A stretch of DNA of 64,000 bases, taken from assembly GCA_017473115.1 (NCBI GenBank), contig JAFUNC010000004.1, positions 124,001-188,000 on the forward strand, written 5' to 3'. The position numbers and the translations under genes were made by a program. Under the pieces are notes generated by a model. It was given only the letters and a program-made list of their open reading frames with translations. It was not told the DNA's origin and ran no database searches. Shown here one piece after another: positions 26,293 through 60,807 of the stretch; position 1 is the first letter of the stretch; each line of letters starts with the position of its first letter. The DNA is from Lachnospiraceae bacterium (GTDB lineage Bacteria; Bacillota; Clostridia; Lachnospirales; Lachnospiraceae).

Positions 26293-26970
26293 TTATTCCT
26301 CATTCCGGTCTTCTTTTTTTATATACTTCTCCGGAAATATAATATACCCTAAAACAAGCCCATATATAATGATTGCTATCATTATACTTCCATAATGTAA
26401 AATATAATCACTGAAATTCATAAGAAAGCCACTTATACCAACACGAAAGATATTAAAAATAAAATCAACAAAAAAATATATAACTCTGCCAATATAGGCA
26501 AATACTACTGCTTTACAAATTACTTTACTCCTTTTTTTCTTTTTATAATCCAAAAACAACATAAGAAAAACAAAAACAAATGCAATCCAAATAAAACTTG
26601 TCATAACAGTAGAAATAATCGATATCATATACGACGACGAAAGAAATTCATTCAAGATGACAAACAAAAAACCATCAAAAATTGCCAATGCTGTAATGAA
26701 ATAAACGACCGGATTTGCCCTATTTCCTTTACCAATTATAATTGTATAAATCAAAACCATCGTCCAAGAAATCATTGGTCCTATATACCAATTATGTATA
26801 AAATTTATCCTTTGACCCCAATTCATCATTTCGTATATATCCAAATACATATCCCAATCATAATTTATAGTTTTAAAAAGCATTATGTTCGAAAATATAT
26901 TATAAAATGCATACAATACTAAAAATGCACATAATGATATAAATGTTAGTTTACCCAATTTGGTTTTCAT
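26293..26970 (-). CDS. polytopic membrane protein, paralogue A
   Basis: A 225-residue, strongly hydrophobic protein with about six helices and no recognised family. It begins MKTKLGKLTFISLCAFLVLY and ends EKYIKKEDRNEE. The neighbouring gene product has the same start (MKNKLGKLTFGMLCSFLVLY), a matching PVVYFITALAIF/ITVYIITAVAIL segment and the same end (FPEKYLKTEEQNEL), so the two arose by tandem duplication. Very AT-rich, even for this genome. It follows paralogue B by 102 bases and probably depends on the same promoter. Function unknown. Confidence 0.7.
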   Translation of the reverse strand: MKTKLGKLTFISLCAFLVLYAFYNIFSNIMLFKTINYDWDMYLDIYEMMNWGQRINFIHNWYIGPMISWTMVLIYTIIIGKGNRANPVVYFITALAIFDGFLFVILNEFLSSSYMISIISTVMTSFIWIAFVFVFLMLFLDYKKKKRSKVICKAVVFAYIGRVIYFFVDFIFNIFRVGISGFLMNFSDYILHYGSIMIAIIIYGLVLGYIIFPEKYIKKEDRNEE

Positions 26971-27072: not shown

Positions 27073-27771
27073 TCACAATTCATTCTGCTCTTCCGTTTTT
27101 AAATACTTCTCCGGGAATAAAATATATCCCAGCACCAAACCGCCTACAATAAGCGAAATAAAAATTATGCCATACCATAATAAATTACTAAACACATTGT
27201 TAAAGTTTAAATAGGATATATTAATCAAAATACTTGCTATCTCTATCAAAAAATTTATTATTTCAAAAACAATCGCACAACAATAAACCGATATCATTGC
27301 TATATTCATTGTCTTTTTCATATTATTCTTTTTATAAAATATACATAATAAAATAAAAGTTAAAAACGCAGCAAATAAAATAAGAATAAACACAATTTTT
27401 AAAATAGGTAAAAGTCCATTGGATAATACGGCACCAAACAAATTAAATAAGATTGCAACTGCCGTAATTATATACACGGTAATATTAACTCTCTTGTTTA
27501 GTCCGATTACAATAGTATAAATCAAAGCAACCAGCCAACAAATTACAGGTCCAATCAGAAATGAAAAGGAAAGAGAACATATACCGCGAAAGCCACCAAA
27601 TCCACCTAATATTTCACTTAAAAAATTCTCTAAGTTAAATATATCACTTAAAATACTTAATTCATACATTATCTTTAAAAATGTAAACATGCTATATATA
27701 TTATAAAATATATACAAAACCAAAAAAGAACATAGCATTCCGAACGTTAATTTACCCAACTTATTTTTCAT
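27073..27771 (-). CDS. polytopic membrane protein, paralogue B
   Basis: A 232-residue membrane protein, paralogue of the preceding entry, with about six hydrophobic helices and a short charged C terminus that matches the sister protein. The start MKNKLGKLTF is chosen because GAGGAGAG precedes it; an ATG seven codons upstream would place the ribosome site inside the gene. First gene after the operator-rich promoter at 27832-27880, so its expression is likely tightly regulated. No known domain, no catalytic motif. Confidence 0.7.
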   Translation of the reverse strand: MKNKLGKLTFGMLCSFLVLYIFYNIYSMFTFLKIMYELSILSDIFNLENFLSEILGGFGGFRGICSLSFSFLIGPVICWLVALIYTIVIGLNKRVNITVYIITAVAILFNLFGAVLSNGLLPILKIVFILILFAAFLTFILLCIFYKKNNMKKTMNIAMISVYCCAIVFEIINFLIEIASILINISYLNFNNVFSNLLWYGIIFISLIVGGLVLGYILFPEKYLKTEEQNEL

Positions 27772-27831: not shown

Positions 27832-27880
27832 TTAGTATATTTTAAATACTAACATTTTGATAGTATATTGTCAATACTAA
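27832..27880 (-). promoter_or_regulatory. promoter with four alternating half-sites at 14-bp spacing
   Basis: TTGACA (27874-27869), 17 bases, TAGTAT (27851-27846). Over it lie four seven-base half-sites in alternating orientation beginning at 27832 (TTAGTAT), 27846 (ATACTAA), 27860 (ATAGTAT) and 27874 (ATACTAA), exactly 14 bases apart. They cover -35, spacer, -10 and the start region, as expected for a repressor array. The same layout recurs at 42332-42380. The regulator is not evident in this window. Confidence 0.7.
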
Positions 27881-42331: not shown

Positions 42332-42394
42332 TAAGTATTGACAGAATACTAACTTCGTGTTAGTATTAGTTTATTACCAATACCAAGTATTGGT
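42332..42394 (+). promoter_or_regulatory. lipoprotein promoter with operator array
   Basis: TTGACA (42338-42343), 17 bases, TAGTAT (42361-42366). Half-sites lie at 42332 (TAAGTAT), 42346 (ATACTAA), 42360 (TTAGTAT) and, weakly, 42374 (TTACCAA), again 14 bases apart and alternating, with the same phase to the -35 as at 27832-27880. Within it AATACTAAC and GTTAGTATT form a nine-base perfect palindrome. A second palindrome, ACCAATAC (42376-42383) and GTATTGGT (42387-42394), follows the -10 and would lie in the early transcript. Confidence 0.75.
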
Positions 42395-42432: not shown

Positions 42433-43845
42433 ATGAAAAAAATTGTTGTTACTCTAATGCTTACATTGCTTGCAACTTCATTTGTTGCCTGTCAAAAACT
42501 TACTCCGGATGAATTAGATCCCAATTTAAACACCGGCAACACATCAAATTCCGATAACGTATCGGATGGTATGCCTGGCGACGGTATTGATGATGTTACC
42601 GGCGACTCCGCTTCTATTGTAGAAGTCGGTGTCGCAGAAACAGTGCTTTTGGATACTGCTGAATACAAAATCACTTTAGATGATACAGCAGCCAAATACA
42701 GCAAGGATGATAAATACAATAACGCTATTACCTTTAGTACAACTGCTGAAAATTTTACTAATCAAAAAGTAGCATTTTGTTTTACTAACGTTAAAATCAA
42801 TGGCAAAGATATGCAAGATACCGAGGTCTCTGCATTAAGAGAAATTTACGGAACGGAAGTCGATGCAAACAGTCATAGTTATCCCGGAATTTTTATTCCT
42901 TATCAAAGCCTCTATGTTGCCGATGTCACAACTGTTGAAACCATTTCTTTTGTGATTGAAGTATACCCCGTTATCGGTTCTTACGGCGAACTCGGAGAAC
43001 TGCTCTACTCTTCGGATGAAGTTACCATTGAAACGATTGTAGGATATGAAGGAGCCGACTTTGAGGATGATGACGAAGAGGACTATAAAGATGAAGATAA
43101 AGATGACGGTTATACCTATACCGAAGTAACCGTAGAAGAAAAGGTACTTGTAGATGATGAATTACTCAAAATCTGCACTACCGGTGATATCACATACGAA
43201 GAAGGTTATGCCCAGAAAATCGGTCTTACCTTTGAAAATAAAACCGGTGGCGATTTGATGATTACCTCAAGATATATCGCTGTAAACGGCTACAACCAAA
43301 CAACATATCTTATGTTTAGTATTCCTGCCGGAGAAACCTTAAACACATCCATTGATTTATTTTATTACGATTTAATGATGTCTAACATTGATACAATTGC
43401 CACCATTGAATTTGCATTTGATGCAGGAATGATTGATGCTGTTACCTATGGTCCGATCACAATTGAAACCTCTGCTGCAGGCTATGAACAGCCCTTTGAT
43501 TTTGATGGTACGACTATTTATAACGAAAACGGTGTTGAAGTGATTGCTTTAGATGAAACATCCGATATCTACAGTTTTAACGGTCCCGTATTTATTTTTA
43601 TTAATAATACCGGCGGAGATATTCGAACAAACTTTGAAAATGTTACAATCAATGGCATCAGCGTAAGTAATGAAGGACACAGCAGACTTCCTTCCGGAAT
43701 GTACAGTGTCAGATTAATGGACTATAGTCATGATATGTACGATAATGATATTGATACCATCGATGAATTTGCATGTACATTAACTATATACGGTGAAAAC
43801 TTTGAAAAACTGGCAGATGCCGAACCCATCACAATAACATACTAA
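42433..43845 (+). CDS. lipoprotein of unknown function
   Basis: A 470-residue exported lipoprotein. The signal peptide MKKIVVTLMLTLLATSFVAC ends in a good lipobox with Cys20. A Gly/Asn/Asp-rich linker follows, then three related beta-rich units (about 70-200, 225-345 and 350-470), recognisable by TVETISFVIEVYPV, IDTIATIEFAFDAG and IDTIDEFACTLTIYG. An acidic insert (DDDEEDYKDEDKDDG, about 215-230) sits between units one and two. It is isolated on the plus strand under a strongly regulated promoter. AAAGGAAAATAAAA precedes the ATG. No family name known to me. Confidence 0.8.
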   Translation: MKKIVVTLMLTLLATSFVACQKLTPDELDPNLNTGNTSNSDNVSDGMPGDGIDDVTGDSASIVEVGVAETVLLDTAEYKITLDDTAAKYSKDDKYNNAITFSTTAENFTNQKVAFCFTNVKINGKDMQDTEVSALREIYGTEVDANSHSYPGIFIPYQSLYVADVTTVETISFVIEVYPVIGSYGELGELLYSSDEVTIETIVGYEGADFEDDDEEDYKDEDKDDGYTYTEVTVEEKVLVDDELLKICTTGDITYEEGYAQKIGLTFENKTGGDLMITSRYIAVNGYNQTTYLMFSIPAGETLNTSIDLFYYDLMMSNIDTIATIEFAFDAGMIDAVTYGPITIETSAAGYEQPFDFDGTTIYNENGVEVIALDETSDIYSFNGPVFIFINNTGGDIRTNFENVTINGISVSNEGHSRLPSGMYSVRLMDYSHDMYDNDIDTIDEFACTLTIYGENFEKLADAEPITITY

Positions 43846-60390: not shown

Positions 60391-60470
60391 ATGCAATTCC
60401 CCGCTTTCATTCCTGATTCTTTTACACAAAATAAAAGAAGAAAGAGCGCAAAAACCCTTTCTTCTCAAAT

Positions 60471-60807
60471 GGAGTAGACGGGAGTCGAACCCGTGTCCAA
60501 AGACTTATTCCCTGTCCTTCTACTATCATAGATGGTTTTTTAGGATTCCCTCCGACGGACGGGAGCCATCACCCTTCCGCCTTCGGTAGCTTCATTTTAC
60601 GCCCTGGCACTCAAAGCTTTGTGACAGTCGTTTCCTGCAAGGATGATGCCCTTACCCCCGCATGCAGGTGTACGGGGAAGGACAAGCTGCATTTAGGCAG
60701 CTACTGCTAATCTATTGTCAGCGTTTAATTTTAGGTTTGTGATTTGACGCATCACCTGCGGATAGCTTCTCCAGCTGCAAAACCCCTGTCGAAACCATGA
60801 CTACCCC
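60471..60807 (-). ncRNA. ssrA: transfer-messenger RNA (tmRNA)
   Basis: The ends form a tRNA-like acceptor stem: GGGGTAG (60807-60801) pairs with CTACTCC (60478-60472), discriminator A at 60471, CCA not encoded. GGTTTCGAC after the 5' end and GGGTTCGACTCCC before the 3' end are the D-like and T-arm hallmarks. The tag frame ends NADNRLAVAA-stop, with the stop at 60695-60693; resumption at the GCT or GAC codon would give ADNRLAVAA or DNRLAVAA. The length is about 337 bases and several pseudoknot stems (CCTGCATGCGGGGG) are visible. It rescues stalled ribosomes with SmpB, encoded just upstream. Confidence 0.95.

Follow-up and report, generated by a model that had tools for sequence, protein, structure and literature searches.

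Two promoters in the 64,000-bp stretch of Lachnospiraceae bacterium DNA analyzed here (hereafter the window; its genome is G000) carry alternating 7-bp half-sites, raising the question of whether both belong to one regulon under a single DNA-binding protein. The half-sites listed in an initial sequence-only reading were confirmed at both places, namely TTAGTAT, ATACTAA, ATAGTAT, and ATACTAA at 27832, 27846, 27860, and 27874 (one mismatch in 28 bases) and TAAGTAT, ATACTAA, TTAGTAT, and TTACCAA at 42332, 42346, 42360, and 42374 (three mismatches in 28). At up to three mismatches, the four-half-site pattern matched the window exactly twice (27832 and 42332) and matched none of 100 dinucleotide shuffles of it; the best arrays in 60 simulated windows had 7 to 10 mismatches, and in the real window a 14-bp period gave a best array with one mismatch versus 8 or 9 for seven other periods. 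The shuffles, simulated windows, and period test thus bear out the original view that chance is a very unlikely source of the arrays.

A TTGACA-N17-TAGTAT promoter was also confirmed under both arrays by direct reading and pattern matching, on the minus strand at 27846..27874 (−35 at 27874-27869, −10 at 27851-27846) and on the plus strand at 42338..42366 (−35 at 42338-42343, −10 at 42361-42366), giving by reading a sigma-A-type promoter with an overlapping dyad in each case; at 27832, rival hexamers (TTTAAA-N17-TATAAT) scored equally high in an automatic promoter scan. The geometry first proposed had to be revised: the −35 begins with the T that ends the upstream half-site, not with the first T of a half-site, and the inverted pairs, described as centred 14 bp apart, are convergent dyads 28 bp apart (centres 27842 and 27870), the pairs 14 bp away being divergent half-sites. 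A fixed 14-bp period of cooperating pairs was likewise unsupported, since other members carry a single dyad or a pair shifted by 6 bp, and for this reason the natural operator unit, as read from the sequence, is the 21-bp dyad TTAGTAT-N7-ATACTAA. In the first array, this dyad covers the −10 as an exact match (27832..27852) and, as ATAGTAT-N7-ATACTAA with one mismatch, the −35 (27860..27880). In the second, TAAGTAT-N7-ATACTAA (42332..42352, one mismatch) covers the −35, and a 27-bp composite operator found by pattern match (42360..42386) covers the −10 and the presumed start, in which the dyad at 42360-42380 is accompanied by an overlooked one shifted by 6 bp (42366-42386). The composite reads TTAGTATTAGT-TTATT-ACCAATACCAA, which is the 27-bp palindrome TTAGTATTAGT-N5-ACTAATACTAA with two changes; an inverted repeat with perfect 8-bp arms, ACCAATAC-CAA-GTATTGGT (42376-42394), overlaps its right half where the leader of the lipoprotein gene presumably begins.

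The genes behind the two promoters lie on opposite strands. The first encodes a hydrophobic membrane protein (27073..27771, minus strand), with its ATG at 27771, ∼68 nt past the presumed transcription start, and is followed by what is probably the second gene of the unit, encoding a membrane protein paralogous by reading (26293..26970, minus strand); the other encodes a 470-aa lipoprotein, recognized by its signal sequence (42433..43845, plus strand). None of the three proteins matched Pfam or NCBIfam, and a search of plasmids for relatives of the 27073..27771 protein found none. Relatives of the lipoprotein were present in 3 of the 31 genomes of the genus, specifically G000, its sister genome G001, and G027. 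The window also contains a tmRNA gene on the minus strand (60470-60807; tag ADNRLAVAA).

The one-regulon claim was strengthened by the same site occurring on promoters at further loci of G000, placing it upstream of several transcription units. At up to three mismatches, the 27-bp pattern was found at four places in this genome (window position 42360, C3:267457, C11:180035, and C13:19673), against none for the reversed control, and by reading all four sit on TTGAC-like/N17/TANTAT promoters. The last three have TTGACT or GTGACA, a 17-bp spacer, and TAATAT or TAGTAT, and their operators by reading start 1 bp before the −10, with which the automatic scan agreed for C11 and C13 only. Behind C3 and C11 are membrane proteins labelled propeller-type for short, a label not derived from fold prediction; that at C11 has a stretch faintly resembling DUF5050 (E = 0.0066, below the cut-off). 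Three of the 31 genomes of the genus have relatives of the C3 protein; when the propeller-type alignment was searched against 397 genomes drawn from the family, only G000 gave full-length matches and the 14 others matched over short parts, with G001 and G027 missing from the matches and so evidently outside the draw. Two weaker candidates, upstream of genes for a membrane-anchored protein (C2:238472, score 15.2) and a DUF975 protein (C6:7979, score 16.5), are unproven, since about one chance site scoring >15 is expected per genome.

In 18 promoters picked for their dyads, the automatic scan, which favours a 17-bp spacer by half a point, gave 17 as the best spacer in all 18, and the dyad began 1 bp before the −10 in nine; the hexamers chosen differed from those read at 27832, C3, and the G001 site C23. 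As for random occurrence in coding DNA, which the sequence-only reading had named as evidence that would count against the arrays, the full array was absent from coding DNA of the window, the only DNA covered for it, and none of the 11 strict dyads (at most one mismatch) in G000 and G001 lay within a gene body, the C11 dyad falling in an automatic 5′ extension of an ORF that was taken as leader sequence.

Conservation upstream of orthologues held in G001, whose leuS and EF-G regions are 88 to 91% identical to those of G000, and failed in G027, a genome as close to G000 as G001 is, in which the lipoprotein and one propeller-type protein have relatives but no operator was found. The 27832 array is kept at the orthologous G001 position C122:5607-5655, both dyads having identical half-sites there (27832..27852 at C122:5635-5655 and 27860..27880 at C122:5607-5627), and the gene directly behind it is the counterpart of 26293..26970. 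None of the 28 half-site bases differed versus 7 of the 21 spacer bases (Fisher p = 0.0014), a contrast inside one promoter of a region that is well conserved as a whole. The two G001 dyads scored 16.1 and 18.2; they were outside the scoring matrix, but their window orthologues were in it. The 27-bp pattern was found at three sites in G001, against none for the reversed control, and these correspond to the C3, C11, and C13 promoters, with 3, 5, and 0 changes in 27 bases. At the last of these (C13 in G000, C112 in G001), all 27 operator bases are identical and the −35 is GTGACA in G000 and TTGACA in G001, yet the gene behind encodes a 112-aa membrane protein in G000 and a different one of 517 aa in G001. 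The sequences diverge soon past this operator (L018:6560-6760 in G000, L079:10880-11020 in G001). The propeller-type genes at C3, C11, and C112 are paralogous, and one of the propeller-type loci of G001 was also encountered in the metagenome-assembled genome Lachnospiraceae bacterium RGIG8694. At the leuS locus, where the window has the 42433 gene, G001 has a dyad (C69:8211, score 15.3) on the −10 of a lipoprotein gene, within an automatic 5′ ORF extension taken as leader sequence; G001 C23 and C91 are further candidate sites.

Genome-wide counts show that the short dyad by itself is not over-represented, as raw counts do not exceed those of the reversed control. With at most one mismatch, dyads numbered 25 in the 31 genomes of the genus versus 87 for the reversed pattern (6 versus 7 in G000), 20 of these genomes having none; at two mismatches the short dyad gave 18 versus 65, and its counts were 30 versus 83 in G000 and 32 versus 72 in G001. 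When read in context, 17 of the 25 strict dyads lay on or beside promoters (six in G000, five in G001, four in G030, and one each in G018 and G022), six lay in coding sequence (two in G022, the others in G029, G016, G008, and G024), and two were intergenic with no clear promoter (G013 and G020). Across 61 genomes, the 27-bp pattern occurred at eight places (four in G000, three in G001, and one in G056, at the end of a coding sequence) versus seven for the control, all seven control matches being outside these three genomes. Chance matches reached a score of 17.0 in real genomes (L088, L090), and none scored above 17 in 4 Mb of simulated DNA; two patterns searched against viral contigs gave no match. 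The case rests on the arrays, on how the 27-bp form clusters in the two sister genomes, on site position, and on conservation. Confinement of the regulon to G000 and G001 was considered and dropped once the strict dyads of G030, G018, and G022 had been read in context. All four G030 dyads belong to promoters of genes for lipoproteins or membrane proteins, which adds to the one-regulon claim together with the array conserved at the orthologous promoter; relative to the first base of the −10, their starts range from −13 to +7 bp, and for one of them, which falls within an automatic 5′ extension, the likely lipoprotein start is further downstream. A dyad without mismatches (score 24.8) overlies TTGACA-N17-TAGTAT in G018, and G022 has one promoter dyad (score 12.7), both starting 1 bp before the −10. 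One dyad promoter of G030 precedes three tandem genes for similar membrane-anchored proteins (L138:1-2414).

Taken together, the sites are quite likely operators of one predicted dimeric repressor of fast-changing envelope genes. A single DNA-binding protein, most likely a homodimeric helix-turn-helix repressor, would act at all sites, each dimer reading TTAGTAT-N7-ATACTAA. The operators are built into strong sigma-A-like promoters, where the first half-site often supplies the −10 hexamer (T-TAGTAT), and a bound dimer would therefore block RNA polymerase; such steric repression is the simplest reading because the dyads cover the −35, the −10, or the start of near-consensus promoters. The strength of control would vary with the arrangement, whether a promoter has a single dyad, a pair spaced 28 bp apart on the −35 and −10, an overlapping pair offset by 6 bp, or some combination of these, and pairs 28 or 6 bp apart could bind cooperatively by analogy with TetR-type dimers of dimers. 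Since the targets are mostly little-characterized, species-variable membrane proteins and lipoproteins, the inducing signal would probably be envelope or host-derived stress.

A point against the one-regulon claim is the regulator itself: the sequence-only reading had proposed to look for a regulator gene that shares the site, and none of the TetR, MerR, and AbiEi genes examined carries a convincing copy in its promoter. MerR-family operators of the CueR type have half-sites of ∼7 bp separated by 7 bp, which puts their centres 14 bp apart, and the half-site geometry here is alike; however, MerR activators use promoter spacers of 19–20 bp, and activation of this kind does not fit because the spacer is 17 bp at both window promoters, neither of which has a dyad between hexamers 19–20 bp apart. 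A MerR regulator was rejected, 10 loci in G000, G001, and G027 showing nothing above 7.5 near a promoter; one G027 locus had a 13.0 match ∼1.1 kb upstream. Among TetR-type regulators, QacR (28 bp) and CprB (22 bp) are described in PMC4150764 as binding a long palindrome with two dimers, one on each side of the DNA, and to that extent the 27-bp composite looks alike, but elsewhere in the present set promoters carry a single dyad or a pair spaced 28 bp apart. TetR was rejected as well, because none of the 12 TetR loci in G000 and G001 had a promoter match above 9.0; matches scoring 9.0 and 7.3 stand 106 and 176 bp upstream of one G001 gene but are lacking at its G000 orthologue (98% identical). 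AbiEi seemed a good candidate, as its gene (PADLOC E = 3e-76) adjoins the C3/C38 target in G000 and G001, has a weak promoter dyad in G001 (13.6), and is missing at the G027 locus, but was rejected since the dyad is not kept in G000 (4.6), and the abiE promoters of the two species therefore do not share it as they would under AbiEi autoregulation. A different inverted repeat, ATCCGA...TCGGAT, is by reading kept in the AbiEi promoters of G000 and G001. In G000 the AbiEi gene is followed by an AbiEii-like gene (by reading), both beside the C3 targets (L016:1815-3028); G001 keeps the AbiEi part of this locus at 98% identity, with no adjoining AbiEii-like ORF listed. The G022 promoter dyad (L083:1501-1905) is flanked on one side by a gene of 276 aa and on the other by a divergent gene of 104 aa (L083:1591-1905), XRE-like by reading, which is a possible, unproven regulator lead; a response-regulator-like gene (by reading) upstream of the G030 C14 site is another unproven lead.

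Other explanations account for the sites less well. That AT-rich hexamers such as TAGTAT and TATACT simply generate dyads with no binding protein is suggested by the short-dyad counts falling below the reversed control and by a −10-like hexamer being included in the half-site; we regard this as highly improbable, given that no shuffled or simulated window yields such arrays, that half-sites are kept between G000 and G001 while spacers change, and that the right half of the 27-bp sites, being beyond the −10, is not called for by any promoter rule. Extremely unlikely is an RNA element in which the inverted repeats form a stem-loop in the 5′ leader: folding gives z = −1.96 for the presumed 42332 leader, which can form a short hairpin at 42376-42394 (equalled by 9 of 200 shuffles), and z = −2.40 for the one presumed at 27832 (equalled by 4 of 200), but the hairpins of the two leaders differ, and with a start assumed ∼7 bases past the −10 the transcript would not span the whole dyad there and would miss the −35 dyads altogether.

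An activator or dual regulator that bends the DNA or holds the polymerase instead of blocking it would be in keeping with the dyad standing in the same place relative to the −10 in half of the scanned promoters (9 of 18), but it seems unlikely, since near-consensus promoters with 17-bp spacers need none and the dyads cover the −10, −35, or start region at places that vary between promoters (−13 to +7 bp in G030). Several unrelated regulators, or spread of the sites by joint duplication of promoter and gene, are also improbable; the paralogy of the propeller-type genes at C3, C11, and C112 of G001 points toward duplication, but by reading the 27073 and 42433 proteins are unlike the propeller-type proteins, and the paralogous promoters resemble each other only in the −35, −10, and dyads, not in the spacers.

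The preferred reading, one dimeric repressor acting at operators within promoters, describes a putative regulon that is itself new and of a kind already known; no such operator appeared among the literature matches listed, which does not imply its absence from print. A further proposal, that a repressor of a family not yet tied to such sites controls fast-changing, species-specific envelope genes across the genus, with the operator outliving the genes, is conceivable though doubtful. At C13/C112, all 27 operator bases are kept and the gene behind differs; the regulon would therefore change by gene replacement, and the comparison suggests an operator-promoter that persists as its downstream gene is exchanged. 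For the Lachnospiraceae relatives involved, known from metagenomes, poorly characterized surface proteins are thereby grouped as a single candidate regulon whose operator is defined, which allows a common signal and regulator to be sought directly.
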